A stretch of DNA of 64,000 bases from assembly GCA_026419785.1 (NCBI GenBank), contig JAODTK010000067.1, forward strand, positions 1 to 64,000, written 5' to 3'. The notes beneath the pieces were generated by a model. That model had not been told where the DNA came from. It did not search any database and saw only the letters and a program-made list of their open reading frames with translations. Source of the DNA: Sclerodactyla briareus (taxonomy: Eukaryota > Echinodermata > Holothuroidea > Dendrochirotida > Sclerodactylidae). Numbering within the stretch: the stretch's first letter is position 1; every line of letters starts with the position of its first letter. Of the stretch, positions 21,536-63,689 are shown piece after piece. The position numbers were made by a program, and so were the translations under genes.

Positions 21536-22085
21536 TCCGGATCTTTTCCTTCTCTTTTCTACTTTCCCTTCTTGCCTTTACATTCTCCCCTCTCTTCTTC
21601 CCCTTCTTCTTCTACTCCTTTGTTACTTTACACTTTTTCCCCCCCGCTCCTCCTTTCTTCCTACCCGCTCTTTCGTCTTTTTTGCTTTTTGTCCCTCCAC
21701 CTCTTCCCTTTCCTTTCCTCCTTTTACATTCCCAATCTCTTGTTTTTCTCTCCCCTCTTCTCATTTCCAGGTACGTGCTCCTTATCTCCTCCCTTTATCT
21801 TCTTCACTCGTTTATTTCTATCTTTCGTCCTATAATACTTCCCATCTTTTCTCCAATTTTCTCTGCCCAGTTCTCTCCGATTTTGCCTCCTCTTCTCCCT
21901 CTTACTTTGACCCCCCCCTAATCCCCTTTTTCGTTTCCACGTTCTCTTCTTCTCATTTTTAGGTCAATTTATAGCTCGCTCCGCCGTTTCTCCTCTTTTT
22001 CTCTCCCTCCCCCCCCCCCATCCTGGTCCCTATTCCTTTCTCCCCTTTCTTCCTTCCCCTTCTTTATTTTCCCCTGCATTGCTCT
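21536..22085 (+). repeat. Long polypyrimidine tract 1
   Basis: About 550 bp is nearly all C and T on the plus strand, broken by AGGTACGTGCTCC (about 21,769) and AGGTCAATTTATAGCTCGCT (about 21,961). The 162-residue frame across it is Phe/Pro/Leu/Ser low complexity and not a gene. The tract can form a triplex (H-DNA). Confidence 0.9.
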
Positions 22086-22199
22086 TTGCTCCACTGACCT
22101 TCTCGATCCTCCTGTCAACCAGTGTGTGTGATCTGAGAGGAGTGAGCCGTCTCCCTGTCCCCCCGTGTGGCACACCTTTCATGCAGTCAATGCACCGTG

Positions 22200-24685: not shown

Positions 24686-24965
24686 TCTTATTGTTCCGTC
24701 GCTCTCCCTTTCCCCTTCCTGTCTTTTTGACCTATTTCTCCTTTTTTTTTGCCCTCCCGTGCTTCCCCCATTTTAAGGTAAATTCTAGCTCTCTTCTCCT
24801 TTCCCCCCGTTTCCGCTTCCTGCTTCCTCTTCTTCCTCTTTCCTTCTCCCTCTTTCTTCTCCCTTTTCCTTTTTCTTTCCCCCCTTCTCTTCCCCTTTCC
24901 TTCTTCCCCCCCTCTTTTTCGCTTCCTCTTCCACATTTTTCCGTTCCCCAACAGTTTTTTTCCCG
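24686..24965 (+). repeat. Long polypyrimidine tract 2
   Basis: About 280 bp of C/T-rich sequence interrupted by TTTTAAGGTAAATTCTAGCT (about 24,772), the counterpart of TTTTTAGGTCAATTTATAGC in tract 1, so both are members of one repeat family. It ends GGGCACCCTGCC...CCGCCACCCGCTG...ACGCTACTG near 25,010. The 217-residue frame crossing it is low complexity. Confidence 0.85.
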
Positions 24966-25381
24966 GTGGGCACCCTGCCAAACCCCGCCACCCGCTGATT
25001 ACGCTACTGATGAATTAATTCGCTCTCATAAATTCGGTAGTCTATGCCTTAACTCTGATTTCGAACATGACTATATGATTGGGCATGGAAGAATGCAGTC
25101 ACACGTCGTATCAACGTTGTTCAAAATCTATATTTCATTTTCCGATATCTTCAATGACATTCAGGATACCTCCTGGAAAATAACATTATTTGTTTCAAGT
25201 TCCATCAACGCACGAATTGGATATCCCGAGCGAAGGCGACTTGGCGAAGGAAGTGAAAAAGTTAGACTCGGTGTTCCAATTGGTATACCAATTTCAGTTC
25301 AACAACTGGTTGTGCATACTTCACAAGTAGACTACAAAGGATGACCAAGTCCGTCTCGAAATGGTGCTGACGTTGGGGCAA

Positions 25382-25655
25382 TCACCTTGCTTCATTTTCT
25401 CTTTTCATCTGCGCGTATTTCATCATTGTCCACGTATTTGATGTTGTACTGGCTACCCGGAAGATTATTCCACCTTATGCTTTGATACCACCCGAGCAAC
25501 CTAAGTAGAGTCCGTTGAGGTTGGAATTATAGCAATTATAGTACCACCACCTCCTTCGACCATGACTAGACTTAGCACAGTGATAACACTATTCTGTCCG
25601 TTGTCCTGTCTAGGTGCTGAATGACATATTCTGTGATACGCCAGAGCTGCCGTAT
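25382..25655 (-). pseudogene. Fibrinogen-related domain (FReD), last exon, copy A
   Basis: After a TCCTCAG acceptor the minus strand encodes the C-terminal third of a fibrinogen-like domain: ALAYH, NMSFST followed by a DRDND-type calcium-binding loop, CAKSSHG, then WWYYNCYNSNLNGLYL, the family hallmark with its conserved cysteine. It ends MMKYAQMKREN before TGA at 25,382-25,384. FReDs are the recognition domains of ficolins, tachylectins and FREPs, binding acetylated sugars or other ligands. One-base shifts are needed near the calcium loop, and a TAA (in KA*GGII) replaces what reads as TCA in copy D. So it is a decayed copy or carries sequence errors. Exon 2 of the same copy lies 2.6 kb upstream in coding order. 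Confidence 0.8.
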
Positions 25656-26744
25656 CTGAGGATGAACCGTGACGGTAGATACATTTCGCATAACCGATTA
25701 TAGTCGACCTATTCTCCTTTTTCTACCGTGTTTTCAATAGGTTAGTTCATTTTTGTGTGATTGTTCGTAGTCGACGTTTCACGTTCTAATCTTATCAGAT
25801 GAATAATTCATGTTCCTTTTCATATACTATCATCTAAAAGTTGTTGCGTCAGTACAATTATCTTTTCCCATTAATCAGGACAGTGGAGTATTTTGCGTCA
25901 CTGCAATACTGCTCGTATCATGCTCATGTAACCTACCTGTCAACATGTGGCAGGCAGAATCGATATTAATATTGTGAAAAGTAGCATTTCAAATTCTACT
26001 TGACATTTATGAGGTTTGTGTATTTTTACTTTAGCAAACATATAAGATGTGGTCGATAGGTTTGCTAGTCTACATAGGATGTGCCTTCGTTTCTGACACT
26101 ACATAGATGTTCTCTGTGAATTTTAACTTTCCGAAAGCTGGCCGAGGCTCTCGGCCAGGGTTTCCGCTTCATAATATATATTTTTCGTTGTTTCATATTC
26201 CCTACCTGGTTACATTTGTAGTTATGTCGTATTTTTCAATATTTTGCTGGTTCAATTTATGTATGAGTTTTGTGTTTCCCTGTCAAAACCCATAAATATG
26301 TAGAAATGTACATCAAGACTCATACTGGTAAATTGAAGGAGCAGATGTCAGTTACTTCAGAAGTGATATACGTGACGAATAATTTAAAGGTTAGGTGGAA
26401 CACATCGCAGCGTTTTCGTTTTCAATTTATTAGTTGTGTCAGAGCTATACGTTCAGAGCAACTAAACATTAATAACCGACACGATGATCAAACGGTTAGA
26501 CGTGTGGGTATCTATTTATAGTACATAAAAATATATCGTAGCAGGTAACTATATACCCGCGACACTGGACGTTTTTCGGGATGTCATGGTTTTGGGAGGG
26601 GGATGTAGCCGCTGCCGGAAAACTCTAGTCGTTAGCGCCAAACTCATCAATGCGTTATCATGATTGATTTCTGAATTGGTACACAGTCCGCAATATAGGA
26701 ATCTCGGATGAGTTTGCATTGAATTTGCATGTTTTACACGAAAA

Positions 26745-26985
26745 TAGGAGTTTTCCTATTTACACGAAACTTGGTGGGTGGGAAAAAACATGTCCGAATA
26801 ACGTGGCGGTGATTTTCAAAGTCACAGGAGTGTCAGGTTTGTTGATTTTTTGGACGGAAATACAGGGTTGTCCGATTTACACGAACCTGGATGGTTGGAG
26901 GACACAGTTCCCGAATAAAGTCTCGAATAAGATGACAATGATTTCGAGGTTCACTAGAGGTGAAATTGTTATTTTTTTTTCGCAA
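26745..26985 (+). repeat. Two diverged tandem units of about 116 bp
   Basis: TTTACACGAAACTTGGTGGGTGGGA (from about 26,759) and TTTACACGAACCTGGATGGTTGGAG (from about 26,875) start parallel units, each followed by CCCGAATAA-like text and a GTCAC or TTCACTAG motif. They lie in the intron of FReD copy A, and I see no matching unit in copy C. Confidence 0.55.
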
Positions 26986-28262
26986 TTGCTCTATCTTAGG
27001 GGGTGGTGGACCGTGTTAGTCCGCAACAACATGAGGTTAATGCAAGGTCACACGCAGGAGGTCAAATGTCTAAACATGCGAACTTTGTCGTATTCAAACA
27101 AAAACTTGGGGATGTGGACCACAGTTGGACCAGAAAAAACGGGTTAAGTCACTAGAGGTCAAAAAGGGGGATTAAACCCTAATGTGTTCCTCTAAACGAG
27201 GGACGCAGGCTGTTTCTGTGGGGATTTACACGTCAGCAGTTACCCGCCGTACGTTATTTAAGGATGAAAAGATGCACAATCCACTGTGGAGCCTGTTCAT
27301 TCATCGGCAACTACCACAGACCTAACAGAGTGGGCTGAGCGGCGATTTATCCACCGCGGAGTTACCACAGTCACTGTTGAGTTAATTTCCTCACCCAGTC
27401 CTACCCAGGAATGGCTGTGGATCGGAAGCAGATTCTCACAGACAGTCTCCTCCGACCGACAAAGCTGGCTTTAAGAATATGTATAACGATGTCTAGCTGT
27501 AGGCTGGTATGATATTGTTGATGAAAACGGTGAGAACATTGGGAAACAAAGGTAATTACAGAGTGAGGAGTTTGTATGCATACTTATACTCTTGTCCACA
27601 CATTATCAATTTGCAATGTGTGATGTCCCCCTACAAATACAACATTAATCACTTCACAACAACTCAAACGAACACCCCATACGCACAAGGGGTCCAGTGT
27701 CTTGTAAGACCATGGATCTTTTCATAACTGTTTTGTTTGTTAAAGTCATACATCAACCTCCGTGGTCCCTCACGTGAACTTCCTTGTTACCTATATAGGT
27801 CTGAACCGTTAAAATTTTTTTTTCTCCCATCATGATGCTATCCCAATTCGGGTGTGAGGAATTCATTTTTGGATGTCAGAACCTCCGTCAGTTCGATATG
27901 CTATGGAGGAGAGGACTCCGGCAAGTCAGATTTCACCTTAGGTTTCTCCCTTTCCTTACTGTATGCTTCGTTCCAAATTATTTCCTGTACCTCATGACTT
28001 GCCTTCATCGTTTCAAATTCTTTTGACATTCCCCCACGGTAGGGTTACTAAAATGGATATAATTCCTCTCTGCCAAGCACCGGCATATCCGTGCCAATAA
28101 ATCAATTGCTGTAATGCCCTATATTATACTCGCAACATCAATGTGTGCCCTCAAAACTAGTCAATCGTGGATTGCATATTTCCTTCTTTGCAAATACCTT
28201 TCATTATTGGCGAGTAACTGCTCTAACTACAAAATACAATTATCCGGGCATGTATTACTTAC

Positions 28263-28533
28263 TTGCTGGACTTTGTGTTAGGTAGGTCCCGAGATCCACC
28301 AGTCCTGTATTTACTCGTTTCGTCGCTGATTCTGAGAGGTTGTATTTTTTGCGAAATAAGGGCTCCGTTGACGTTGTTCATACGATACGAATCTCGTAGT
28401 TCTTTTCTGATGTCACATCGGCCAGGTTTGTCGTTACACCAGAAACGCTCTGTTGAGGAAGCCGAAGCCTTCTTTGTAGTTCAGCCCAGTTGCGATAGAA
28501 GTCTACACCCCCGTCAATTCTCCGCTGAAACCC
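28263..28533 (-). pseudogene. Fibrinogen-related domain, middle exon, copy A
   Basis: Acceptor TTGGGCAG precedes 28,533 and a perfect donor GTAAGT follows 28,263. The 271-nt exon reads GFQRRIDGGVDFYRNWAE, the most characteristic FReD string. It continues with a tract whose other frame gives EGFG, then TNLADVTSEKNYEIRI, RKKYNLSES and VDLGTYL, matching family positions LADLTSxxNYELRI, AKYxxF and YRLxLGxY. It is the core of the fibrinogen-like fold, between the N-terminal disulfide and the calcium loop. A TGA interrupts it after EIRIV, and a one-base shift would repair the WLGNDN region. The gene family is well supported; its integrity is not. Confidence 0.88.
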
Positions 28534-28620
28534 CTGCCCAACCCAACATAGAGAATAGATGTGAGAAACGTGAGGTAGAACGCTCACAGCAATGAACTGC
28601 ACGATACCAACACGATATCA

Positions 28621-28712
28621 AATGTACACTTTTGTGGTGAGCCATGGGAAAGGCTATATGAGTAAGAGTATATGGGGTGAATAATCTGATTGACCAATCT
28701 GATTGAAAAATA
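28621..28712 (-). promoter_or_regulatory. Conserved intronic block, copy A unit 1
   Basis: Begins AATGTACACTTTTGTGGTGA and runs through GCTATATGAGTAAGAGTATA to TGATTGACCAATCTGATTGA. It is nearly identical to 56,865-56,955, differing at about four positions over 90 bp, while the neighbouring exon has diverged far more. It sits just upstream (in coding order) of the middle FReD exon. A regulatory or splicing role is inference from conservation; recent gene conversion is the alternative. Confidence 0.5.
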
Positions 28713-28740
28713 TAGTGTACAGAACAACGCCGAAGGTTGA

Positions 28741-28821
28741 AATGTACACTTTTGTGCTGAGCCATGGAAAACGCTCTATGAGTAAGAGCAATCTATCGCA
28801 TATGGGGTGATAATCTGATTA
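28741..28821 (-). promoter_or_regulatory. Conserved intronic block, copy A unit 2
   Basis: A second copy exactly 120 bp from the first: AATGTACACTTTTGTGCTGA, CTCTATGAGTAAGAG, then an 11-nt insertion and TATGGGGTGATAATCTGATT. It makes a tandem pair not seen in copy C. Confidence 0.5.
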
Positions 28822-29812
28822 AGAACTAATAGCGGGACAGGAAACTACCTCAAGGTTCATACACTTTTTCTGTATAACGACGTGAAGTTGCAGTATAAAC
28901 ATGGACTGATTTCCAAATACTGACTTGGACTGCTTAGCATACGAAGTATATATGATCACATGAATAAACGACGAAGAAAACAGACAATCTAGGCAACAAT
29001 TAATTGTGCAAACAGAGGCCATAACGATGACCGTAATTATTTAAACGCGGATTTGTCAGCAGACATGCCCGTTCATAAGGATGGGTGGGCGGTGCGTTGC
29101 CTTCAACAATCCATTATAAATCCACATCACCCTCGTTAGCGGGAATGAACATCCGACTCATCTATACAAATTCCACAGCTTCACACAATGCTACCACTAA
29201 ATTTTAAAAAAATTTATACTCCGCAGTTCGAACGACGTACCTGAAAGAAGCACCCATTTGAATTACGAACGTTTCATTTTACTGGGTTGATCGCGTCAAT
29301 CCCAAGCGAAGATGGCAGAGTGGTATCAGTGGACGTTTTTTGGAAGCAAGATTTCGGGTTGAATTCCAGCAGGGCACTGGACGTCTTCCCTAGATTAGCT
29401 GTGCTTGCAGTTGCGATGGGCGAGGTTGAGGTCTTCACCTCAAAGTTCCGCTGTAATGGCAGTGTATTTGTGAATGGGTTTCTGAATTTGTTTCAAGAAA
29501 ATTTTGCAATAGGAACTGCCACTCCTCCAGGTTCTCGGAAAGTGGTCGGATACTATTGTTTCTTCGGAGAGGATGTAAATGGCTGTATCGGGAGCAATTG
29601 CGAATGGATTACCTTTGCCTCGATATTATCTGATCATTAGTCTGGTAGAGAAGGCGGCTATCGTCTGTGCTCTTCTGTTAGCCTGTACTTGGCTTCCTGA
29701 ACCACAAGCAATCAAATAAATCGTCGCCACAACGGCTACTTATTGTCATCAGACACGAGAGCAAGTATGGGTCTACTACCGTCCATTTGCCCCCATCCAA
29801 TGGTAATTGTAC

Positions 29813-29922
29813 AGAAAACTTTGAACGTTCCGGTGATCCTCAGGTTGTATCGTGTATATTCCAGAATCCGTCTCATCTTCACATTGTTCGTAGACCCCTC
29901 ACAGTCTCTCGATACTGGGGGT
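29813..29922 (-). pseudogene. Fibrinogen-related domain, first FReD exon, copy A
   Basis: From an acceptor ACCAAG at 29,923 to a donor GTACAA after 29,813, the 110-nt exon encodes the start of a fibrinogen-like domain: DPQY, RDCE (the first disulfide cysteine), NNVK, SGIYTIQP, and in another frame GTFKVFC, equivalent to the PFxVYCDM motif. Two small frame shifts are required. The matching exon in copy C is 111 nt. The short CDM...GGWTV exon expected between this one and the middle exon was not found. Confidence 0.7.
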
Positions 29923-30187
29923 CTTGGTATTAGTAAAAATTACGATGTGTCTGAATAGTGAGAACGACTGGAATTCCGTTGAACTGTGTACACGCCTTAG
30001 GCATGGCATATTCGGGTAAAAAAGTATCCGAAATCGAGTGCACAGTTCTCAGTCAACACTGACTAGAATGATTCCTGAGCGTGTAAAGTGAAAGCAGTGA
30101 CAAAGAACGAGAACGACTTCGCAACACGTGGGACATAGACATATTTGCACGGACAATGACTGTTGGGGTCATGGGAATGGGACTCAC

Positions 30188-30257
30188 CATGACTTGAACA
30201 GCTTCGAGGGAAGCAGAAACAATGTAAGGTGTGCATTGGCCACACTATGAGGCCCAT
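30188..30257 (-). CDS. Possible upstream exon of FReD copy A
   Basis: The minus strand reads YIVSASLEAVQVM up to a consensus donor (GTGAGT after 30,188). Copy C has YIVPASLEAIEVM at the same place (about 59,080-59,120), with the differences leaving the frame open, as expected for coding sequence. In copy C the donor is changed to GATGAC. It could be part of an N-terminal helix or coiled coil. The start is not defined. Confidence 0.3.
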
Positions 30258-30689
30258 ATATTAAGGAAGCATCAAATGTCAACGATCTTCCAATTTTTTT
30301 TTGCAATCATATAACCTAACAAGATGATGCAGTGGTATACTACTCACCACTGGTGCTTCGTCTTGTCCTGACCTCAATTATAGTACGACATCAGCCATGA
30401 GTGAAACAATTTATCGGTGTAACCTCAACATTGAACCTGAACAATTTCGAGCCAATTCAAGAGAGATCGATGTGTTTCACCAATATACTCCGTACCATTG
30501 CATGAGTTGCTTGGTACGGGTCAAATCGTCTTATTCGCCAGTCGAATGATCTCCTTTGGACTTTGGTAGTTTCATTTGGCTCTTAACATTCTTGACTTCT
30601 TCACATTCTCTTGAAATAATAGTGATATTCAAATAAATCGGTTGCATACCGGATTCTATATTCATTATAATTGTTCGTTCTCCATCGCT

Positions 30690-31462
30690 CAACTGATCAT
30701 TCAGCTAATGTGGGAGGGTACTTGGTATTTTGTGCAGATAAAGAATGTGACTCAATTATGCGTTGCTGTTCATAGATATATGTTTCGTTTGTTCTTTTTT
30801 CCTGATAACATTAGTATCACATTCAGTTGTGTGATAGGCATCTAACAATTGAGCCCTTGCATCAGGTCCGATTGGGGAATCAATTCCTCCTTTAACATTT
30901 TGGGCTACAGACACTACCCCTTTAATTCCGGTGAAACATTTTTCTGTGTACTCTACACGTTCCCGCTATTCGTTTACCACTTCCATGCAAATTTGACAAA
31001 TCCATGTGGTTAGAATAAATCCATAGGGATTTGAAAACTGTTCGCCCCACTGGGATCGGTTTAATTCTTACAACCACACTTCTCACTAAATAACAAAAAT
31101 AAAACAACCCACCTACCGTTAGTTTATGTTTTCTCTTAATTGCCAAATTCAGACATTTTTTAGAACAAAGACAAAATATTTGGAGACTGTGCACAATTCT
31201 TATATTGGGTGAAGTTACGGAATCAGGAAAGATATGTTTCCTCCTTTGATTCTTTTGAATCAAAACAAAATTAATCTGCATCCGGTGGTATAATATAAAG
31301 AGCGTTTGAAAATAGAGTTCCCATGGAACGAGGGCATCGTCTATCAACTAAATAGTTTTTTCAAAAGTTACGTAGATAGCCAGATTAATTAAATAGGAAA
31401 GGCAATATTATCCGCAACGCAGGAATGCCATTCATCGATTTTGAAAAAAAAATATATACCTT
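30690..31462. repeat. Tandem duplication in copy A, unit 1
   Basis: Matches 31,463-32,282 in order: AACTGATCAT, TCAGCTAATGT, ATTATGCGTTGCT, ACATTAG(T/C)ATCACATTCAGT, TTGAGC, TGTGGTTAGAATAAATCCAT and CCCATGGAACGAGGGCATCG. Copy C has a single, more diverged version near 59,660-60,480, so the duplication arose in copy A alone. Open frames here are not conserved between units. Confidence 0.85.
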
Positions 31463-32282
31463 CAACTGATCATATCAGCTAATGTAGGGAGAGGTACTTG
31501 TTATTTGTGCAGAATAAGGAAAATGTGGCTAAATTATGCGTTGCTTTCATCGCTTATATGTTCGTTTGTTCTTATCATGATACATTAGCATCACATTCAG
31601 TTTTTTGATTAGGCATCTAAGAATTGAGCACTTGCCAGCAGGTTGATTGGAGAATTCGCCTTCAACGCCTGAATCTACCCATCAATTTCCAGTGAACAAC
31701 ATATTTCTTTGGGTACTGTACACGTTCCCGCTATAGTTTGCCACTTTAATGCAAAGTTTGACAAGCCATGTGGTTAGAATAAATCCATAGGGATTTGAAC
31801 TCGTTGGCTGTGATCGGTTTTTGAATTCTTACAAAATCCCCACGTCTCATTAAATAACAAAGAAACAAACCAAAGTAAGTCTACAAAAAAAAATAAAAAA
31901 GTGGGAGAAGTGTGTATATGGCGCACTTTCTTGGTGGTATAGTTTTTATGTTTCCTCTCAAATTCAGAACATTTTTAGAACAAGAATATAAAAATAATAT
32001 AAAAAATTTTGGAGATGTTCACAATTCTTTCATTTTGGGTAAGGTACAGAGTCGGAAATATATGTGTTTGCCTTTGTTTTTTTTGAATTCAATACAAATT
32101 ATTTGCATACGGGTATAATAGAAATTTAATAGAAGCGTTGAAATAAAGTTCCCATGGAACGAGGGCATCGTCTATCACCAATAGTTTTTTCAAAAGTTAC
32201 GCGATAGAGCCAGATTAAATAGGATAGGAGGCGATATTATCCAGCAACTGCAGGAATTGCCTTTTGAAAAACAATATATCCC
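31463..32282. repeat. Tandem duplication in copy A, unit 2
   Basis: Second unit of the roughly 0.8-kb tandem duplication. Differences from unit 1 are mostly one- or two-base indels, which break the 141-residue frame of unit 1 and argue that it is not a gene. Confidence 0.85.
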
Positions 32283-32347
32283 GCTTTAGTGGGAAAAAGA
32301 AAGCGCTGTCTCGTTACTCTAATAAATATATTTTTGGAGATTATTTG

Positions 32348-32373
32348 GTGAGGCGCTTTCGCGAAGGTTTGGT
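32348..32373. promoter_or_regulatory. 26-nt identity block with GCTTTCGCGAAGG near-palindrome, copy A
   Basis: Identical over 26 nt to 60,548-60,573 although the flanks of the two copies differ at many positions. Its core CTTTCGCGAAGG is a near-palindrome. In coding order it lies upstream of the FReD exons, where a promoter could be. The role is inferred only. Confidence 0.35.
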
Positions 32374-33045
32374 GTTTGTGAGCGCATGGGGTTTGCTTTG
32401 TGAAGGAAAAGGAAACGTCGCTGTATAGGCTCCATGGATGATTTGGAAAATAAATCGAGGGTTCCTTATCCTAAATGTGATGTTAGATCAATGATGACGT
32501 CATACGTGGAAGCTGAGAAAACTGAGGGCGTTAGCCTGCCGAGCAGAGGTTTAAAACACGTTAAGACCAGTACACTCGGTATTATCCCCAATGTTTTTTT
32601 TTCTGAACAAGATGAAAAAACAAAAGTCTCCCTCCAAATAAGGCCGCGACGTCTCATATTAGGTCCGTAATTCTTACTTAGAAAGACTGACATGCAATCA
32701 CCTCATTAATCTTATCTCCAGCGCTGATCAGCTGATAACATTTGTTTATATGAGCCTAGGGTAACAAAGTTCAAACTTAGCAAACGAATTGGTCCTGCAC
32801 AGTTCACGAATCACAGGAAAACATCGCCAAAATATTCAACTATCCAAAATGATGTACAAATGTGGGCGCCCAAAAAATATAGGCAATTTTCGGACATGAG
32901 ATTACGATGCCATGAATTATTTTAAATCAGGCAATGTGGAACACACCTAGCACCGAAATACGGATCTGATACAGCGTGCATTCACTGAACAGTGTACAAA
33001 AACGACGCCCACCCATTGTAGTATGCAATTAAGACAGATTTAACA

Positions 33046-33195
33046 AAATAATAATAATAATAGTAATAATAATGGAATAATAATAATAGAGCATTCTTAT
33101 ATAACGCATTCCGCGAGGAAGGACCTCAATGCGCTGAACATAAAACCAAAACAAGCATCAAAGGCTAATTAATTAACAAAAAGATAGTCTTAAGA
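33046..33195 (-). mobile_element. LINE (CR1/L2-like) 3' tail
   Basis: On the minus strand GCGTTATATAAGAATGCTC is followed by a run of TAT/ATT repeats (33,046-33,090), the same kind of end as GGCGCTATATAAAT at 20,483 and GCGCTATATAATGC at 63,568. Only the terminal 150 bp or so is present. Confidence 0.6.
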
Positions 33196-33364
33196 TTACT
33201 CTTAAATACCATGGATCCTATTATCGACCTACACAGGTATAAATCGTGTCTCCAAGGGGGAACGCAACGTTGGTCTATTCAAATAACGGATATGAACTTT
33301 GATCTAAACTTGCCCAGGCCTCTAGAGATATATTTAGTATACTTCCAGAGAATACATATCCCTT

Positions 33365-33605
33365 ACAAAAAAAGTCTAGGATGTCTATAGAAGTGTTTAT
33401 AGAGTTAGATAGGTCTCTATAGAAAACGTCACTTTCTATAAATGGAGCCCAGATTTTCTATAGAATCCATAGTTTCTAGAGATTCTATAAACATTTCTAT
33501 TAAAACGTTTTTGTATGTAAGCAGTCGTCAAACCCTCCATAGAGTTTATAGATTCTTCATTTTTTTCAGAACTCTATAGACCCCTATAGAATCTGAAAAT
33601 CTAAT
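33365..33605. repeat. Irregular cluster of TCTATAGA motifs
   Basis: Many copies or near-copies of TCTATAGA occur here (for example about 33,382, 33,413, 33,456, 33,572 and 33,584) at irregular spacing. It is the same palindrome as in the 11-bp array at 35,416, 2 kb away. It looks like diverged or unexpanded precursor sequence. Confidence 0.65.
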
Positions 33606-34300
33606 GCCATTGGTAATGATAATGATGATGATAATAATAAAAAAAATAGTGCAGTTGCAGTGAAAATAGGCTGAAAGTTGTGTGGTGGGCTGCTGTTTAA
33701 AGGCGTTCTGTTGTCTTCTGGCTAGTTTCCGAAATTGTTGCCGCCCACATGTAAACGTAACATGCCTGTTATGTTCTTGATATTTAGAATATTAGCTGGG
33801 AACATCACTTGGTTATCAACACTTACCTTAATCCATGTGGTCCCCGTCTCTCAACACTTCAACTAAAGAGGAGGAGCAAGCTGCTGCACTGCTGGGTGAC
33901 GACGATTTGACTTTGACCATGCATTTAAATGGTTGGGAGGGAGAGTTGGCCAGATAAAGGAACGAGAACGTTATATCCCGCATCTTTTAACACCCTCATA
34001 ATGTGTTGGACAGGCAGCAGGGCTGCCGACCGAGAGTTACGGCTCCTGCAATGCCGTCACCTCCACTTCCACTTTTTAGACGCCGCACCTGCCAAATGGT
34101 AACTTTGTTTATTTTTGTATATCAGCAATTTAAGAAATTAGGACCTGTGTTAAATATCAAAAAAAGAGAGAGTTAATATGTGGACAGGCTAAAGATGTGT
34201 AGGTCTTCTAGCTGTTCTGTTAGCTTTCTGGAAGACTTGAATTTATATGCCTATACTGCACAAAATTGGAAATAAGAACTGCTTTTACTTATAAACAGCT
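33606..34300. other. No supported gene
   Basis: A short ATG/ATA-rich microsatellite (about 33,616-33,645), then unique-looking sequence with no frame of interest. Confidence 0.4.
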
Positions 34301-34303
34301 TTC

Positions 34304-34410
34304 ATTAATTTCTATAGAGACTCTATTAAGACTTTCTATATAATCTCTTATAGAATCATTCTGGGGGTTGCCATTAGCTATTTATAACATGTATTGCTCT
34401 TCTATAAATC
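34304..34410. repeat. Second irregular cluster of TCTATAGA-like motifs
   Basis: TTTCTATAGAGACTCTATT (about 34,310), TTTCTATATAATCTC, TATAGAATC and TTCTATAAATC recall the array unit but are not periodic. The cluster lies between the 33.4-kb cluster and the arrays. Confidence 0.6.
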
Positions 34411-35189
34411 AAAAAATCCCATGAATGAATGAATGTTGGGATCATAGTGAAAATTGATAGCTAATAGCCTTCACTTTACATCATTTGAATTTAATAACTT
34501 GTCTACAGATAAATTTAAATATATTCAGTCAGATTTAAACAAATCACAAACCGACCAGAACGTTTTGTGATTTTGACAGCCAATTCAACTCAGCGTGTCA
34601 GTAGGCTCTGTAGTTTGAATGTCAGCCATTCCAGTCTGAAGTGGTTTATTATCCAAGGAACATTGGATATGTATAGTATAATTGGCCAGGAATTTATAGT
34701 TTCATGCTTGTCAATTGGAAATTATGATTTATTTATTCTATGTGGTATTATTTTTTATTCAATTCAAGCCTAAAAGGTTGTAGAGTGAATGTGTAGGCTA
34801 TAGCCTAACGAATATTCAGTGTAACACATAGCAAGTAGTACACACAGTTTGTATGTGACTATTAGCTAGGCACAAAGTCTGGTGCAATTTGTGTGTGGTT
34901 AAGCCTATTACTGGTATAACATGTTGAACAATGCGTATTTAATATGATCAACCCGTGGCAGGAAAAAGGAGGATCACAATTATCTGACCGGTAGGTGCCC
35001 TTGTGTTATTCGTGAAATATTGGATAACGGCTAATTAGGCTAAACGTTCGAAGCTAAGAATTATTCTGCTATTCGATTAGCCTCAGTTATGTGTAATTGG
35101 CACTGCATACTTTTATTTTTTTATTTCCGGATGCGCAGAAAATAAAAATATATTTTATATCAAAGACTAGCCTGCAGGCGTGACAGTCC

Positions 35190-35242
35190 CGGTGGGGAGA
35201 GGGGTGGGGAGAGGGGTGGGGGTGGGGGGGGGGGGGGGTGGG
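35190..35242 (+). repeat. G-rich tract able to form a G-quadruplex
   Basis: Successive GGGG runs (GGTGGGGAGAGGGGTGGGGA repeated, then about 16 G and GTGGG) meet the four-G-run rule several times over. It lies about 170 bp before the 11-bp arrays. Confidence 0.75.
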
Positions 35243-35415
35243 TAATCAGCTATTCAACTATTTGCCATAGCCGATCAAGGTAGTATAGGCTTGTGTTCAT
35301 ACCAGAATTAGAATATGATTCTCTCTAGACATTATTGAGAGATTTTAGCGATTCTTTGGAGACTCCTCAGAGTTTCCATGGAATATCTTATAAATTTTCT
35401 TTAGAATTTCTATAG

Positions 35416-35899
35416 TTTCTATAGAGTTTCTATAGAGTTTCTATAGAGTTTCTATAGAGTTTCTATAGAGTTTCTATAGAGTTTCTATAGAGTTTCTATA
35501 GAGTTTCTATAGAGTTTCTATAGAGTTTCTATAGAGTTTCTATAGAGTTTCTATAGAGTTTCTATAGAGTTTCTATAGAGTTTCTATAGAGTTTCTATAG
35601 AGTTTCTATAGAGTTTCTATAGAGTTTCTATAGAGTTTCTATAGAGTTTCTATAGAGTTTCTATAGAGTTTCTATAGAGTTTCTATAGAGTTTCTATAGA
35701 GTTTCTATAGAGTTTCTATAGAGTTTCTATAGAGTTTCTATAGAGTTTCTATAGAGTTTCTATAGAGTTTCTATAGAGTTTCTATAGAGTTTCTATAGAG
35801 TTTCTATAGAGTTTCTATAGAGTTTCTATAGAGTTTCTATAGAGTTTCTATAGAGTTTCTATAGAGTTTCTATAGAGTTTCTATAGAGTTTCTATAGAG
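35416..35899. repeat. 11-bp minisatellite: 44 perfect copies of TTTCTATAGAG
   Basis: 484 bp is exactly 44 x 11 with no indel and no substitution seen. Each unit holds the 8-bp palindrome TCTATAGA. It is preceded by degenerate partial units (TTTCTATAG at 35,407, earlier TTCTTTAGAATTTC). All six frames contain stops every 33 bp or less, so it is non-coding. 11 bp is close to one helical turn, which puts every TCTATAGA on nearly the same face of the DNA. Confidence 0.98.
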
Positions 35900-35920
35900 T
35901 ATCCTATAGATTTTCTTTAG

Positions 35921-37130
35921 AAATTCTTTAGAAATTCTTTAGAAATTCTTTAGAAATTCTTTAGAAATTCTTTAGAAATTCTTTAGAAATTCTTTAGAAA
36001 TTCTTTAGAAATTCTTTAGAAATTCTTTAGAAATTCTTTAGAAATTCTTTAGAAATTCTTTAGAAATTCTTTAGAAATTCTTTAGAAATTCTTTAGAAAT
36101 TCTTTAGAAATTCTTTAGAAATTCTTTAGAAATTCTTTAGAAATTCTTTAGAAATTCTTTAGAAATTCTTTAGAAATTCTTTAGAAATTCTTTAGAAATT
36201 CTTTAGAAATTCTTTAGAAATTCTTTAGAAATTCTTTAGAAATTCTTTAGAAATTCTTTAGAAATTCTTTAGAAATTCTTTAGAAATTCTTTAGAAATTC
36301 TTTAGAAATTCTTTAGAAATTCTTTAGAAATTCTTTAGAAATTCTTTAGAAATTCTTTAGAAATTCTTTAGAAATTCTTTAGAAATTCTTTAGAAATTCT
36401 TTAGAAATTCTTTAGAAATTCTTTAGAAATTCTTTAGAAATTCTTTAGAAATTCTTTAGAAATTCTTTAGAAATTCTTTAGAAATTCTTTAGAAATTCTT
36501 TAGAAATTCTTTAGAAATTCTTTAGAAATTCTTTAGAAATTCTTTAGAAATTCTTTAGAAATTCTTTAGAAATTCTTTAGAAATTCTTTAGAAATTCTTT
36601 AGAAATTCTTTAGAAATTCTTTAGAAATTCTTTAGAAATTCTTTAGAAATTCTTTAGAAATTCTTTAGAAATTCTTTAGAAATTCTTTAGAAATTCTTTA
36701 GAAATTCTTTAGAAATTCTTTAGAAATTCTTTAGAAATTCTTTAGAAATTCTTTAGAAATTCTTTAGAAATTCTTTAGAAATTCTTTAGAAATTCTTTAG
36801 AAATTCTTTAGAAATTCTTTAGAAATTCTTTAGAAATTCTTTAGAAATTCTTTAGAAATTCTTTAGAAATTCTTTAGAAATTCTTTAGAAATTCTTTAGA
36901 AATTCTTTAGAAATTCTTTAGAAATTCTTTAGAAATTCTTTAGAAATTCTTTAGAAATTCTTTAGAAATTCTTTAGAAATTCTTTAGAAATTCTTTAGAA
37001 ATTCTTTAGAAATTCTTTAGAAATTCTTTAGAAATTCTTTAGAAATTCTTTAGAAATTCTTTAGAAATTCTTTAGAAATTCTTTAGAAATTCTTTAGAAA
37101 TTCTTTAGAAATTCTTTAGAAATTCTTTAG
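35921..37130. repeat. 11-bp minisatellite: 110 perfect copies of AAATTCTTTAG
   Basis: 1,210 bp is exactly 110 x 11 and looks perfectly uniform. Joined to the first array by a 21-nt hinge (TATCCTATAGATTTTCTTTAG from 35,900). Aligned with that array, TTCTTTAGAAA versus TTCTATAGAGT agree at 8 of 11 positions, so one probably derives from the other. It ends abruptly at AAATTTGTGT. It is non-coding, with TAG in every plus frame and TAA in the minus frames. Confidence 0.98.
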
Positions 37131-37137
37131 AAATTTG

Positions 37138-37960
37138 TGTAAAAGGAAGAGTCTCTTTCGCACCTGTACGAATGGACAACGAAAAGTATCGATGAAAATG
37201 ACAGAAACATACAAAACAACAGCCAGAGTTGCTTCGATTTTAAACAATTTGACAAACAATTGATTTTGCTTGTGTGGCTATATGTATGATGGACATCCAT
37301 TCTTGAAAAACCAGGAGAGGTTAGCTCTAATCCAAGGTCGGATTCGGGTTTTCATATTTTCATAGTTGACCTTAATCAGTGGGAATCACAACTGGGACTC
37401 TGTGGAATCATTCGAAGGATATAACGCATGATTTATATTATTTTCATTATAGGAAACAGAGGAGAAATCATAGTCGAAACGAACATTGAAATATTTCAAA
37501 TAGTTTAATTCTGTTCAATTCTAGATTGACTTACCTACTTCTTACGACAAACAAACCAAGTATGCCTACGGCCTTCATAGAATCCATGTTAGACTAATGT
37601 CGGTAGATTTAAAACCGAGATAGTTTTGATGAAAGCGGAAAGAAAGGGATGTCGTAAACAAATTAAGTAAAACAATATGGATTTGAGGTTCCCCCCATAT
37701 TTACCTTAGTTCTAACAGTTTTCGCAATAAATAGCCGATATCGTGATTGCGTGTCTGTATCGCATTGCAATAAAGTAGATTAAGGTTACGGACTTGGATC
37801 GGAATTAGGTACGTTCAATCACTACTGAACACCTTGTAAAAAAGATGAGTACTAGCGCGCCGCTTTTACAGTTGCAAAAAATCAGGGATTATGACTAGAG
37901 CTTGCATTTCGAAGATTGTATCATGATAAAAACGCATGATAAATACAGATTACACAATGA
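37138..37960. repeat. Segmental duplication, copy A, part beyond the arrays
   Basis: 37,138-37,420 resembles 62,118-62,410 (ATGACAACGARAAGTAT, GAGGTTARGCTCTAAT) and 37,760-37,960 resembles 63,690-63,870 (GACT(T/A)GGATCGGAATT, ACCTTGTAAAA, GTTGCAAAAA). So the duplication resumes after the arrays, which are absent from copy C at this point. Confidence 0.6.
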
Positions 37961-54161: not shown

Positions 54162-54559
54162 TTGAGAATAATATTCGCTCATAGTATTACTATGAGGTTC
54201 TCTCACTATCCATAGGGCGTGGAAAGAATGCCAGTAAACAGTCATGTCAACGTTGTTGGAATCTATATTTCATGTTTTCGATATCTGCAACGACATTTCG
54301 GATACGTCTCTGAATAATAACATTACTGGTTCCAAGTTTCATTTCGTGGGTATTTACAACGCACGTATTAGATTATCCCGAGCGAAGGACAAATTGGGTA
54401 ATGGATCCAGTGAAAAATTATACTCAGGTGTTCCACGTGATATACCAATTCATTTACCAACAAATGTTGTGCACTTAATAAGTAGAACTACAATAAGATG
54501 ACTAAGTCGGTCTCGAAAATGGCGAAATGGGCTGACGTTGGGGTCAATCATATGGATTC

Positions 54560-54690
54560 ATCTTTAATCCTGCTCGTATTTTTTCATTTCCAAGTACTGA
54601 GGATTTTAGACCAATTAAAACACTTTGATGAACAAACAGCATCCTCCCTGAGCAACCGAAGTACCGTAGAAATGGAATCAAATTCATATG
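54560..54690 (-). pseudogene. FReD last exon, C-terminal half, copy C (separated)
   Basis: Aligns with 25,390-25,510 of copy A: the minus strand gives GCSGRM where copy A has GCSGGI, and ends with GNEKIRAG-type text. In copy A this is continuous with WWY...NLNGLYL; here about 340 bp of unrelated sequence intervenes, so the exon is split. Confidence 0.5.
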
Positions 54691-55019
54691 TCAAATAGAA
54701 TGCGTTCAAATAAGAAATCCATTGCTTCATATGTCTTGGGTATAAACGCACTAATCACGGCCCCGAAGGGCATTGTTGTCAGGTAGTAACTAACGAACAG
54801 GCCACAGCGTCGTTTGCATGACCGTCACGACGGAAAATATTTCGGTGGTACAATTACAATATCGGTACGGTATCTTCACTATCATATGTCAATGCTGGGG
54901 TTCGCGAAACGTTGTTTTTTTCTTATCGCTGCAATGAACCGTGCACTATTCGCCGGGTGTTAAGGATAAGAAAAATCGATATGAGTTTTGATTCTTTTCG
55001 TGTTTCGAAATACCCTTTT

Positions 55020-55200
55020 TTCATCGATGTAAATTTCAAAGCAATCAGCTGTAATCTCCGTCCGTTGAGATTGGAATGATGACATCAGAATACCACATGC
55101 ACTCGACATACTATAGTAGCCTGTTGTAAATACTATCTATGTCGTTGTCCCTGTCGTGGGTAGTAAACGACATGTTCCTGTGACGAGCCAGGCGTCGTGT
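55020..55200 (-). pseudogene. FReD last exon, calcium-loop half, copy C
   Basis: The minus strand reads SLARHRNMSFTTHDRDNDID (after one small adjustment at its start), a textbook FReD calcium-binding loop. It continues to a broken WYS.CHHSNLNG and then LKFTSMKK. The acceptor CTCAG of copies A and D is CTCAAC here. An insertion after NLNG parts it from its C-terminal half. Confidence 0.8.
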
Positions 55201-56583
55201 TGAGGAATGAAAAGAAGAGTGTGCAAAGATATGTACATAAACAGTGGGTGGTTTAGTCGATCTATCCTCTTCTTTCTATACTGTGTTCTCATTACAGGAA
55301 ATGATTTTGAACTTGTGTAATTGTTCATTCTCACCATGTTACGTCTTTCTTATCAGAAAATAATTCGTATTCCGTTCCACATAGCGTCATCCAAAGAGGT
55401 GTTATGTCAGTACGTTTTTTCCTGTGTTTAATTATTAAACAAGATGGGAGTAATTTTGGCAACAACGCATACTGCTCGTATCATAATCTTATCACCTACA
55501 TTGTCAGAAAGTGTGTCAGGGGCGAGATCAGATATTATTGTAAAATGTAATGAATGTTTCCTGATTCACATGTAGAAGTGTATACGTGCTAGTCTACATA
55601 AAAGAGGTGCGTTCGTCTATCACAGTTCCCAAACAGTAAAGTGTAACGTTTTCCAACCTTTCGGAAGCTGGCCGAAGCGCTTGCCGGATGTTTCCGCTTC
55701 CAGTATACTGTGTTACTTTGATCTCGTTATATTTCCCTTCATCGTTACGTTGTTATTATTTCGTATTTTTCAATATTGTCACAGTTTAATTTAGGTATGC
55801 GTTGTGTGTTTTCCAGTTTCCAAAATCCATACCATATGTAGAGATGCTATATCAAACTCCAATGGTCTTTTCGAAAGGAGGCACATAGCCAGTTATATTC
55901 AAAGAGTGTTATTAGTTGAAGTATATTGAAAGGTTCTGGTGGAACAAATCAAAGCGTTTCCTCGTTTTCATTTGTAGTTGTGTCGTAGCTAGGATTCAAG
56001 AGCAACGAATTAATAATAACCGACACGATAACAATCACTGGTTGACGGTCATACATCTGTGTACTCATTTACAGTGCAATTCACTGGCTGTCCATCATAA
56101 TTTACGGTATAGGTGATTTATTCACTGATAGATTACCACAATCTAGTGTGGAGGCATGTTTCACCGGTAATACAGCCCGCTGTGGGTGCAATAAATATCT
56201 ATCGACATCCTACCACAGTGTACTGTTGGCTGCAATTTATATTCACTGCGGGGTTGCCACTGTCAACTGTTGAGGCAATATGCTCACAAACAGTATTTAT
56301 TCACCGACAAGTTAAATCGAATTCCTTATTCCTCTTCGCCAAGCACCAGTATATTTCATCCAATAACGTCACATTGCTGTCCTGCCCATACATCATTCCC
56401 TATATAAACTGTTATTGAGCCATCAACCTGGGGCCCCAATGCCTACTGAAATGACATGAATTCCGTCTTTGCTTTATTATAATTCAATTTTTATTTTGCG
56501 TGTGACTCTTCTACTACAAAATATGAAATTTACGATGGTGGACGATGGTTAGTTTCTGTATGAATAAATCACACGTTATTTAC

Positions 56584-56765
56584 TTGCTGTGCTCTGTGAT
56601 AGATACGTCCCGAGATCAACCAGTCCCTGTATTTACTCGTATTTCCAAGGAAGCAGGTTGTCGTTACCAGCCAGAACTCTCTGTTTAGGAAACCGAAAAC
56701 CTTCTTTGTACTCGGCCCAGTTTACGATAAAAGTCCACACCCCCGTCATCTCTTCGTTGAAAAAC
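56584..56765 (-). pseudogene. Fibrinogen-related domain, middle exon with internal deletion, copy C
   Basis: From acceptor TTTGGGCAG to donor GTAAAT, 182 nt against 271 nt in copy A. It reads FQRR.DGGVDF, then in shifted frames NWAEYKEGF and LAGNDNLL, and jumps to KYR and LGTYL-like text. About 90 bp, coding for LADVTSEKNYEIRI through the KYNL segment in copy A, is missing. The loss removes a central strand of the fold, so a product would not fold normally. Confidence 0.82.
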
Positions 56766-56864
56766 CTGCCCAAACACAACATTAGAGAATAGGATGTGCT
56801 GATACGTGAGGTGGAACTGCTTACAGCAATGAAACTAAAACCGAACGATATCAACAAGGTAATA

Positions 56865-56955
56865 AATGTACACTTTTGTGGTGAGCCATGAAAAAGGCTA
56901 TATGAGTAAGAGTATATGGGGTGATAATCTGATTGACCAATCTGATTGAAAAATG
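56865..56955 (-). promoter_or_regulatory. Conserved intronic block, copy C
   Basis: Nearly identical to 28,621-28,712 (AATGTACACTTTTGTGGTGA, GCTATATGAGTAAGAGTATA, TGATTGACCAATCTGATTGA). A single unit here, against two in copy A. Confidence 0.5.
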
Positions 56956-58217
56956 TGGGACAGAAAAACTCCGGATGCTCATGTGCTCATCCGGAAGTGG
57001 CATGAGAAGGCAGTATATACAGTGGAGCCTATTTCCAAATAAGACTTGTACTGACCCCTGGTATCGCGAAAAGATCAGAATAAACAGAGTGCAAACGATA
57101 ACCAACAATTGCAAAATAACAAATTTTGTATTTTTTTCCAATTCCACAGTTTATCATCCAATTTCAATTACTTGTGATTCTCCAAAATTCACAAGCCGAA
57201 ATCTTATTTAGTTAGGCCCTACATAAGGGCAGTATATACAGTGGCGATTTCCATACGACGTGTACTGCCTGGGTAACGAAGAAGATCAAATATATATAAA
57301 TCAACGCGGGTGAAAACTGACAATCAACAACCAATAAATGTGGCAACATGTGACAATAGTTATGATCGAATTATTAACTGCCGAGTTTTTAGCAAGACTG
57401 CCTGTTTCAATAAATGGTTGGGTGGGGCGGTGTTTTGTGCTTCACAATCCGTTTTATGAATCCAATCAAACCTCGTTCAGCGAGAATGAACATCCGACGC
57501 TTTTCACAAATCATAAGGTTCACAAATGCTACCACTAAGAATTTTATATTATTCCGCATTTGCCACACGGTTTACCTGAGAATCATCCCATTGATTTTCG
57601 GATGGTTTTATTTTGAATGGTTCGATCGCGTCAAAACCCACGCGGAGATGGGTAGAGTGGTATATAATTACGCTTTGCAACCAAATTCGAATTCCGCAGG
57701 CACGGACGTTTCCCTGGATTACTGTGCTTGCAGATTCGAATGGTCGAAGTTTTGGTCTTATACGTCATGGTTCTGCTGTAATGCTTGGATTGTGCTGGGA
57801 TTCTGAACAGGATATTTGCAATAAGAATCTTACCGCTCCTTCAGTTTCGCGAGAAAGTGGTCGGATCCTGGGGTTCAACGATCGCCATTCGGAGAGCCTT
57901 TGAATTGCTGTCCGTGTAGCAAGCGTGTATTGAATCACCGCCCTCTGCCCACTCGATATTAGCTGATCATTATTCGAGAAGGGAAGGCAAGTAATCGCTG
58001 GTGCTCATCCGCGATCAATACGCCCAGGGATCCCGATGAGCCTTATTTGGCTTCCTGAAATCACCCACTCGCAATCAAATAAACCCTAATCAAACTGCAC
58101 AACAGCCACTCATGGATATCAACCACGAGAGATACAATCATTGGCTAAAGTGAGTTTGTATCGTGGGTCTACGTACCGTCCCCATTTGCCCGCCCCATCA
58201 TGGTATTTGTTTTTTAC

Positions 58218-58328
58218 CGAGACTTTGAACGGTTCCGGTGATCCCACTGTTAATTGTGTAACTTCCAGATTCTGTCTCAATCTTCACATTGTTCGTAACT
58301 TCCTCACAGTCTCTCGGATACTGGGGAT
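58218..58328 (-). pseudogene. Fibrinogen-related domain, first FReD exon, copy C
   Basis: From acceptor CTACAAG to donor GTAAAA, 111 nt. It reads DPQYPRDCEEVTNNVK, ESGSYTI and ITGT in one frame, then a one-base excess hides the FKV motif of copy A. This is the cleanest copy of the domain start. Open sequence continues upstream (QVYPFSLFIHFVLLLQ), which is hydrophobic but lies in intron in copy A, so I do not read it as coding. Confidence 0.75.
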
Positions 58329-59069
58329 CTTGTAGTAGAAGTACGAAGTGTATGAATAGTGAAAACGGATAGACTTGCAAGTTGAAGTAGCACTCGTGTG
58401 GCATATATCGGGTAAACAGACTTCAACAAATGGATTCTACGTGATTGTGGCGGACATTTTGATGATGCAAGTGACTAAGGGCGATTCATATCATGCGTCA
58501 TTACCTACAACGCGATTGAAATTCGCTATGAGGTCATATCCTTTCATTGCCTACGATTTGAACAATTGTAACATTGTCTACTGTTACAATATTCTCCGAA
58601 TCGCCGCCATCATCTGTTGTGTAATGTGTACTTTTCACGTGTTATGTTATATATACTTGCTTGTATTGCAGAAGTATGTATTCAACACAAACGCAACTAA
58701 TAAACAAACGAACCAACTGTGAAAACACAGAAAAGAATACCGTAGTAGGTTTTCTGTATTTCTCACCTCTGGCCCTTTTGAGAGATAGGTAATCCATTAA
58801 TGAAGTTACACAATACAAGACCCCTTGCCAAATTGAATTTACAGTGTCCTCTATCCCTGATTACAAATTGGCAAGCGTTCCATAAACAAATATAATCTGG
58901 AATATCAATGCCGAATGCAGTACATGGACGACATTCTTAGATCACAATAATTAGAGACGATGCCTTCTATAGCGGAAGTAAATAAAGTGAAGAAGGAAAG
59001 ATAAGACTGAGCAACACATAAGGTAGAGAGTTATTCGCACATACCATGAATGTTGGGGACAAGGGGTGG

Positions 59070-59125
59070 GGGTCATCCATAACTTCAATAGCTTCGAGGG
59101 AAGCAGGAACAATGTAAGAAGAGGC
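59070..59125 (-). CDS. Possible upstream exon of FReD copy C
   Basis: The minus strand reads YIVPASLEAIEVM, matching YIVSASLEAVQVM of copy A, and remains open beyond. The donor seen in copy A (GTGAGT) is not kept. Evidence rests only on frame conservation. Confidence 0.25.
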
Positions 59126-60547
59126 CACAATAATATGGGCCAAGCTTTGGAGAGAACACCCTTTTTGGACATCCTTCAATAAAACAAAATCTGGCAATTC
59201 CACACCCTGACAACGCTGATGCAGTTGTCAATACTACCTCACCACTGGTGCGCCTTCTTGTCCTCGACCTCAGATGATTAGTATCGAATCAGCCTAGTGG
59301 AAAAAACAAAAAAATATGGTGTCGGTGTATTCCTGAATATTGAATATTTATTTCGCAGGCATTCAAGAGAGAGCAAACAATTTTAAGCGCATGGTGTTCC
59401 ACCAAAATACCCTATCATTGCATGTGATCACTGGGTACGGAGCCGGTCGTCCTCATCCATCAGTCGATGAATCCGGTGTTAGTTTTATTTCACTAGGCAG
59501 CTATGGTCTTTATCACTGCTCACATTTCTGAATTCTGATTGATGAATAAACAATGTATCATATTTCCCATTTCCTTTAAATAACCGGTGATTGGTGATTT
59601 CAAATAATAGGTTGCATGTCGAATTCCCTATACTTTATAATTTGTACGTTCTCCAGACATTTACCGATCATTTAAGCACAATGTAGAGTAAACATTTATT
59701 CTGTGCAGAATGGAGAAATTTGACTAAATTATCTGATGTTGTGTTCACTGCTTTGTTTTTTTTCAGTTCTAATTGAGCACTTGAATCAGGTCTAATTGAG
59801 AGGACATCTGCTTCAATGTTATGGGCCTCTGACTTCTACCTCTCAATTCCGTGATTTACATTTTTCTTGCTGCATAGAACACATTGTCTGCTTTATTGTC
59901 CACCTCATTACAATTTATAAACTCATGTGGTTAGAATAAATGCATAGTAGGAGCTTGAACTAGTTGATCGGGATCGTTTTTTCCATTCTTATAGGGCCCT
60001 TATTTCAAATGAATTCCTATAACGTAGAGGAGTTCATGGCACACCTGAAAGTTTTGGGAGTGTGTATAGGTGTGCACTGTTTGCGTGCGAGTTTATGTTT
60101 TCTCTCCAAATTATAAAAAAACAACGTAACTCGTTATGAACGTTTTTGTTTGAGTTCAAGTATACTTGAAGCATGGTTACAACTTTTTGATTTGGTGACA
60201 GAGTCCGCAAACCTGATTGCGTAAGAATTGTTTTTATGGCGGAAAAACTATCTGATTTCTATGAATTTAATTACAAAATCAATTTGGAGTCCGGGGAAAT
60301 AATATCAACTTACATAGGTGGAATGTTTGAAATATAGCTTTCAGGACCCGCGGGCATGATCTATAACTGTTTTTCTCCACGAGAAATTTGAGTTGGTAGG
60401 TATGAATAAACAGGAGTATTAGCAACTGCGGGAATTTGGCTCTAATTTCGAACCAGTTGGAAAACAATATATCTTCGCTTATCTGGAGAAAACCAAAGCG
60501 ATATTACTAGAGTTACTCTCATATTATATTTTTGTATGCTCATTGTA

Positions 60548-60573
60548 GTGAGGCGCTTTCGCGAAGGTTTGGT
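60548..60573. promoter_or_regulatory. 26-nt identity block, copy C
   Basis: Identical to 32,348-32,373, with the GCTTTCGCGAAGG core. Confidence 0.35.
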
Positions 60574-60764
60574 ATCGTGAGGCGCATGGAGCTCGCCTTC
60601 GAAGTAGAAAGCGGTTGTAGAGGCCCAATTATGATTTAGGGATAAACACGGTAGCGAGGGATCCCGTTCAACGTCTCAAATGTGATGTTTAAAACCGAGA
60701 TCAACTATCGTGAGGCTGAGACAACCGAGGTGATAGCCTCAAAGGTCTCTGAAACCTTCAGTCT

Positions 60765-62115: not shown

Positions 62116-62117
62116 CA

Positions 62118-62410
62118 TCTGAGACAAAATGACAACGAGAAGTATTGATGAGAGTACAAAACATTATACAGCGCACCTTGGCAAAGTTTTGGCATTTGAT
62201 AAAATTGAAATAATCTGGGGTGTCCATGTGATGCTTGTATTAATGGTAAATTCATTCTTTATAACCGAGGAGGTTAAGCCTCTAATGCAAGCTTCCCCGT
62301 CGAAATAAGTTAGTTAGATCGCTGTTGAACCAAACTAATCAGTAGGCCTAATAGTTGGGGTTTACAACAGAATTCGGAATAAGGCCAGGGTCACTGGGAC
62401 AAACCTCCAC
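62118..62410. repeat. Segmental duplication, copy C, part matching 37.1-37.4 kb
   Basis: Shares ATGACAACGARAAGTAT and the GAGGTTARGCTCTAAT region with copy A. The match resumes at 63,690-63,870 after two retroelement insertions. Confidence 0.55.
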
Positions 62411-62730
62411 ACCTCCATATTCGTACTATTTCAGAAATATTCAGAGACATCAGTTGTGAAGGACCAATTGGTAATGGATTTCAAATTGACAGTACTGAGT
62501 TATATAGCACCGTTTTAAAATAGGCTCCTTCGATCTGGGCCTAGGATTTCTTCCTTAATATGGAGGTCAGACGTCAACCGAGGCAGTTTTGTCGTTTGAG
62601 CTGCATATTAACAAACACAGTAAAGTAAAACTCGTCGAGCAACCTCCCCTCAAGCTCAAGGCAACATACGTTCATGAATTAATTATCGTCGAGCGTTATT
62701 CGACTGCCAAAACTAACGTTTTAAAAAGTT

Positions 62731-62937
62731 TCAAATGTTAGTTGGCCACATCGATTCCTCGGGCGACAAATGCATGCACACACCACATTCTGCACAATTC
62801 ACCTGAAGCCCAAGTTCTCTTAAAAAGGAAGAACCTACCTTCACATTGTCTCTTAAGGTGTGAAAGTGTTTTTTGCTGCCAGAATGGATGACAATATTAT
62901 TCATAAGGCAGTTGTGTATTGTCTGTACGCGGATCAC
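62731..62937 (-). mobile_element. Ty3/gypsy-like reverse transcriptase scrap
   Basis: The minus frame reads NNIVIHSGSKKHFHTLRDNV, ELGLQVNCAECGV and HLSPEESMWPTN. The order matches the gypsy-type polymerase: the catalytic YxDDI box (here mutated to MNNI), SxSKxEHxxxLR, GLxxNxxKCxF, and HxISPEGIxP. Only about 65 residues remain and the catalytic aspartates are lost. Confidence 0.6.
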
Positions 62938-63630: not shown

Positions 63631-63689
63631 ATACCAAGGGTAGTTTCGGTGTGGAAAATCGGGTGTTCAAGAAAATGAGGTGAAAACAC

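Follow-up and report, generated by a model that had tools for sequence, protein, structure and literature searches.

The two abutting arrays of 11-bp units described here, which lie in a 64,000-nucleotide window of Sclerodactyla briareus DNA (contig JAODTK010000067.1), probably had their origin in different units of a single older, mixed array. We propose that this mixed array decayed, and that two single-unit expansions followed separately, each arrested by variant units; the probability of this explanation as a whole is put at roughly 0.78. The locus is a non-coding complex minisatellite, of an ordinary kind and with an unusually readable history.

The first array consists of 44 exact TTTCTATAGAG units (35416–35899) and the second of 110 exact AAATTCTTTAG units (35921–37130), separated by 21 nt (35900–35920). 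These unit counts and coordinates are exactly those of the original prediction, and its statement that not a single unit in the arrays varies was also confirmed: the number of variant bases is 0 over 1694 bp. The perfect period-11 runs extend from 35414 to 35900 and from 35913 to 37135. Tandem Repeats Finder reports one array (35397–37135) with a score of 2489, which is far beyond chance; the runner-up among the 31 rows for the window scores 287. Written in register as GTTTCTATAGA and AATTCTTTAGA, the two units are alike at 8 of 11 bases, as had been predicted. The units are arranged head to tail with a period of 11 bp, longer than the 10 bp that minisatellite units exceed by definition, and the locus holds more than one unit type, with two pure arrays, joined by variant units and bordered by decayed ones, as in complex repeats. 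A coding function of the arrays was rejected; in both of them the open runs are limited to 10 residues, and 10 aa is the longest run per frame in all six frames.

The junction is composed of a 12-nt variant unit, GTATCCTATAGA (its G is position 35899), followed by TTTTCTTTAGA (its last A is position 35921). The latter is intermediate between the array units: of the three positions where these differ, it agrees with unit 1 at one, with unit 2 at one and with neither unit at the remaining one. TTTTCTTTAGA is also found left of array 1, at 35395–35405, and thus flanks this array on both sides. When the left flank is cut into 11-mers, degenerate units can be recognized by eye from about 35317 onward, and cyclic-unit scores and lag-11 identity place the decayed, older edge of the array at 35304–35404. 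The first-unit cyclic score of this stretch is 33 and the second-unit score of 35322–35404 is 32, compared to maxima of 18 and 16, respectively, in 40 dinucleotide shuffles. Lag-11 identity at 35310–35404 is 0.49, against 0.285 expected, and was reached in 0 of 2000 shuffles; at 35250–35404 it is 0.40 and was reached in 1 of 2000. A cruder test, the count of near-exact first units (at most 2 mismatches) at 35300–35415, gave 2 against 0.2 expected, 2 also being the highest count in 200 simulated sequences. On the right, no decayed edge of array 2 was detected at 37136–37260 (lag-11 p = 0.58). At 37136–37300, the second-unit score is 6, under the shuffle maximum of 14, and the first-unit score of 10, against a mean of 6.0 and a maximum of 8 in shuffles, stems from 37225–37250, away from array 2 (40 shuffles in both cases).

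The resemblance between the two sides of array 1 extends beyond the shared TTTTCTTTAGA. The left block at 35372–35415 is paralogous to the junction block at 35888–35931, with 37 of 44 positions identical in an ungapped alignment and a score of 30 that compares to a maximum of 21 in 2000 shuffles. Self-BLAST aligns the left block to the junction at 85.1% identity over 47 bp (E = 2e-7) and to pure array 1 at 80.9% (E = 0.002). Because the junction matches the left flank, an array in which both unit types were mixed would have existed first, with two of its units expanding later, and the junction looks like a surviving old unit order rather than a random switch. The specific order a-b-c, in which a is GTTTCYATRGA, b is the 12-nt RTATCYTATARA and c is TTTTCTTTAGA, is likely rather than certain, because, with the comparison to the left flank restricted to the junction core, the observed score of 20 was reached in 22 of 2000 random two-unit mosaics with 20% mutation. 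These observations bear on the original prediction that one array probably seeded the other and that intermediates were absent. The relatedness of the units stands, and the arrays do abut, as direct seeding in either direction by mutation and expansion of an edge unit would have it. Seeding without intermediates does not stand: the decayed units at 35304–35404 and the intermediate TTTTCTTTAGA, present in both the junction and the left flank, are such intermediates. With decayed units of both kinds left of array 1, the two types seemingly coexisted before the expansions, and we consider direct seeding improbable.

According to the explanation that we favour, an older 11-bp array of a-, b- and c-type units decayed through point mutation, after which two single units, one of a-type and one near c, may recently have expanded in place to the pure runs of 44 and 110. 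Replication slippage and/or unequal exchange, acting where runs were uninterrupted, would have driven the expansion. The variant units between the arrays would have halted each expansion, such that the old order was kept as the 21-nt junction and the decayed left edge. A process of this kind, arrested by variants, would explain the purity of the arrays, their sharp borders and the survival of the junction. We infer slippage, the order of events and their recency from the pattern of units, which would also be compatible with unequal exchange, gene conversion or rolling-circle reinsertion. The arrest by variants agrees with published results on human repeats. Point mutations can halt tandem-repeat expansion in human genomes, where low divergence within arrays accompanies younger slippage (PMC10502081), and slippage of microsatellites is reduced by single interruptions (PMC4102424).

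The absence of any difference across 1694 bp limits divergence since homogenisation to at most 0.18% (95% upper bound), compared to the 15–16% by which the two junction-type blocks on either side of array 1 differ, possibly from the start. On the strength of this comparison, either the expansions would be recent by the standard of the parent array or turnover would be continuous, and the sequence alone fits both. The predicted "very recent expansion or strong homogenisation" is supported by the same two figures. Consensus smoothing readily affects long uniform arrays, and the uniformity and the copy numbers could in principle have arisen during assembly or consensus polishing, from an array that is in fact noisier. 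We give this little credence: the sequence preserves two distinct pure arrays, a junction of variant units and a decayed edge as separate features, and smoothing would tend to erase such variants.

An old direct duplication in the window supplies a second copy of the surroundings of the arrays. Positions 25078–33045 and 37137–37928 match 54212–61297 and 62090–63845; the duplication is mostly collinear and patchy, with BLAST pieces that are 69–86% identical, and the copies are ~28–30 kb apart left of the arrays and ~25–26 kb apart right of them. Homology stops at 33045/61297 and resumes at 37137/62090, which is the right edge of array 2. The right flank scores 215 against its paralog (maximum 134 in 300 shuffles and 117 among 35 other pieces of the window), and alignment with lenient gaps gives 266 against a shuffle maximum of 203, or 819 against 691 for a longer stretch. 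On the left side, the lenient alignment of 34950–35415 is not above shuffles (341, shuffle mean 352), stricter alignment gives paralogous matches up to 33045 only, and none of the 150-bp tiles of 33100–35415 scores above its own 60 shuffles in comparison with the other copy. The stretch confined to the first copy, 33046–37136 (4091 bp), holds both arrays and two decayed clusters described below, and the paralogous position, 61298–62089, has 792 bp without detected similarity or 11-bp units (scores of 10 and 7 for the two units). The duplication probably preceded the arrays, unless the second copy lost them, the former being simpler.

Two further features of the duplication were observed. At 62077–62086, which is paralogous to the right edge of the arrays, the sequence reads AAACTCTAAG, loosely like one unit 2 and too short to judge. 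The first copy contains a nested tandem duplication (30689–31460 and 31462–32282), in which 641 of 717 ungapped bases are identical and gapped BLAST pieces are 75–81% identical. Translated matches between the copies of the large duplication are short, some of them running through stops, and the duplicated region is probably non-coding.

Decayed units of the TCTATAGA type form two clusters within the stretch confined to the first copy. Cluster A (33320–33590) has a first-unit score of 47 and cluster B (34292–34406) one of 30, compared to maxima of 22 and 19, respectively, over 40 shuffles; the second-unit score of cluster A, 24, is barely over its shuffle maximum of 23. Lag-11 identity alone is not significant for cluster A (p = 0.23) and gives p = 0.0085 for cluster B. 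Near-matches number 13 at 33300–33640 (0.4 expected) and 4 at 34290–34430 (0.13 expected), the maxima in 200 simulated sequences being 4 and 2. When 207 tiles outside the arrays were ranked, the tiles of the two clusters took the first two places in three of the four scans; in the remaining one, which used the reverse complement of unit 1, cluster B tied with tile 52801. This and the other high first-unit tiles, 53701 and 54001, overlap AT-rich microsatellites. All 5 TCTATAGA octamers of the window outside 35400–37140 fall at 33384–34311. One possibility, tentative and on balance unlikely, is that the TCTATAGA-type 11-mer represents a mobile or locus-bound repeat family that has produced arrays here time and again, namely two decayed generations (at 33.3 and 34.3 kb), one part-decayed edge and two fresh arrays, all in one duplicate copy only. 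If so, the birth of arrays, the choice of unit and arrest by variants could be watched at this locus, which would amount to a persistent nursery of arrays.

The clusters and the arrays could also be parts of one mobile element (33046–37136) with internal 11-bp repeats that was inserted in one of the duplicate copies, the arrays having grown inside it. There is precedent in the Tetris foldback element of Drosophila virilis, which gave rise to satellite arrays (PMC4079207). The edges of the stretch are sharp, and all of the octamers outside the arrays are contained in it. The left edge, where homology to the paralog breaks, opens with an (AAT)n tract that adjoins a GCGC-containing stretch (33046–33140), presumably reminiscent of the 3´ tails of LINEs and SINEs. 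However, the stretch is not classed as a transposon, because its edges have no terminal inverted repeat or target-site duplication above chance: in inverted comparisons of 33030–33150 with three array-edge stretches all scores were below the shuffle means, and the longest word shared by the edges is 4 nt, not above chance. Furthermore, the paralog has 792 dissimilar bp and no empty site, and large unmatched gaps are found elsewhere in the duplication too. No transposon protein was found among 30 ORFs tested against Pfam, which says little, only one of them (34519–34770) being inside the stretch. The one pair of inverted matches linking cluster A to cluster B (25 nt, 72%) is expected because the units are self-complementary. 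Overall, we regard insertion of such an element as distinctly unlikely.

A palindrome in each unit was part of the original prediction. This is true of unit 1, which has the perfect 8-bp palindrome TCTATAGA, and not of unit 2, in which the palindrome is interrupted (TTCT-TT-AGAA). As a single strand, ten units of array 1 form hairpins with 8-bp stems (z of -7.4 and -6.9 for the two strands, relative to shuffles), whereas ten units of array 2 show no folding beyond shuffles (z of -0.5 and -0.2). The hairpin-forming unit 1 may have helped its own expansion, and hairpins would be at most a help, because array 2 is longer without having this property.

The 11-bp period had also been thought to place each palindrome on nearly the same DNA face. 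This idea is weak and fails beyond a few units, the drift per unit being 17 degrees at 10.5 bp/turn, with a full turn per 21 units; at 10.2 bp/turn, it is 28 degrees and a full turn takes 12.7 units, about one nucleosome length. The in silico curvature check suggested at the same time gave high values that are not specific to the units. In a wedge model, 121-bp pieces of either array are predicted to be more curved than 99% of 1034 pieces of the window, but arrays of shuffled 11-mers attain the curvature of array 1 and array 2 in 25% and 47% of 500 trials, respectively. A control of phased A-tracts was far more curved, with 2.67 compared to 1.35 and 1.20 for the arrays, all of these values being rough. 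Because shuffled 11-mer arrays attain similar values, the curvature is ascribed to the period and not to these units; it is a generic outcome of an 11-bp period and gives no clue to function, and a curvature or nucleosome function specific to the units was rejected. Maintenance of the arrays by a protein that binds the palindrome on one DNA face, in a regulatory or chromatin function, would draw on the palindrome and hairpins of unit 1. It is most improbable in view of the rotational drift, which shifts the face along the array, the generic curvature, the lack of excess folding in unit 2 and the absence of 11-bp units from the paralogous copy.

With bacterial settings no tRNA was found in the window, and Rfam gave no match at gathering score. 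The ORFs given to Pfam came from a set of 123 frames that run from stop to stop over 75 aa or more. One of them, at 7143–7634 on the minus strand, has a weak match to Sushi (E = 0.0022; 18.8 bits, below the curated cut-off of 20.7) and matches complement-receptor chains in the PDB (the best with E = 1.7e-15 for a multi-domain chain taken as a whole, with no single stretch passing); it is perhaps an exon of an animal gene of the Sushi (complement control) type. Two weak DUF matches of another ORF were far below cut-off and judged to be due to chance. Polypyrimidine stretches, with 100-base windows of at least 90% C+T, are found at 21542–21768, 21974–22095 and 24777–24967. About 170 bp left of the arrays, a G-run at 35194–35242 fits the pattern of a G-quadruplex, as do 9 sites in the window in all, counting both strands; it might stall replication.

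The locus offers a clean snapshot of minisatellite birth, with a decayed mixed array, a surviving unit order and two fresh expansions apparently stopped by variants, and the paralogous position 25 kb away, devoid of units, serves as an outgroup. The general view of repeats is unchanged by it, and it makes an instructive example of ordinary repeat birth. In a partial literature search by sequence, TTTCTATAGAG was found in papers of which none concerns tandem repeats, judging from their listing, and for strings longer than one unit the only match was unrelated by its listing. Patterns of two units had 0 exact matches in viral_contigs. In genome_contigs, the first two-unit pattern had 1 match, of two units only, in a Lachnospiraceae MAG and beside sequence that is terminator-like by eye; it was taken as a coincidence. 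These collections are viral and prokaryotic, and are hardly informative on a repeat of animal DNA.

Among known systems, the rare fragile sites FRA16B and FRA10B are AT-rich, hairpin-forming minisatellites with units of about 33–42 bp. The likeness is limited to array 1; the units are 11 bp here, and the longer array 2 lacks excess folding. The Tetris foldback element shares internal tandem repeats amplified into longer arrays but these are ~220-bp repeats within terminal inverted repeats (PMC4079207), and such ends were not found here. Close parallels come from human complex tandem repeats and minisatellites (PMC10502081). Where human loci carry 500 bp of repeats or more, the complex ones tend towards units shorter than 10 bp and minisatellites tend to be single-unit, whereas here two pure 11-bp arrays abut. 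As at the present locus, different units have expanded at single human loci, and low divergence as a mark of young slippage and the halting of expansion by point mutations are features that the human repeats share with the history proposed here.
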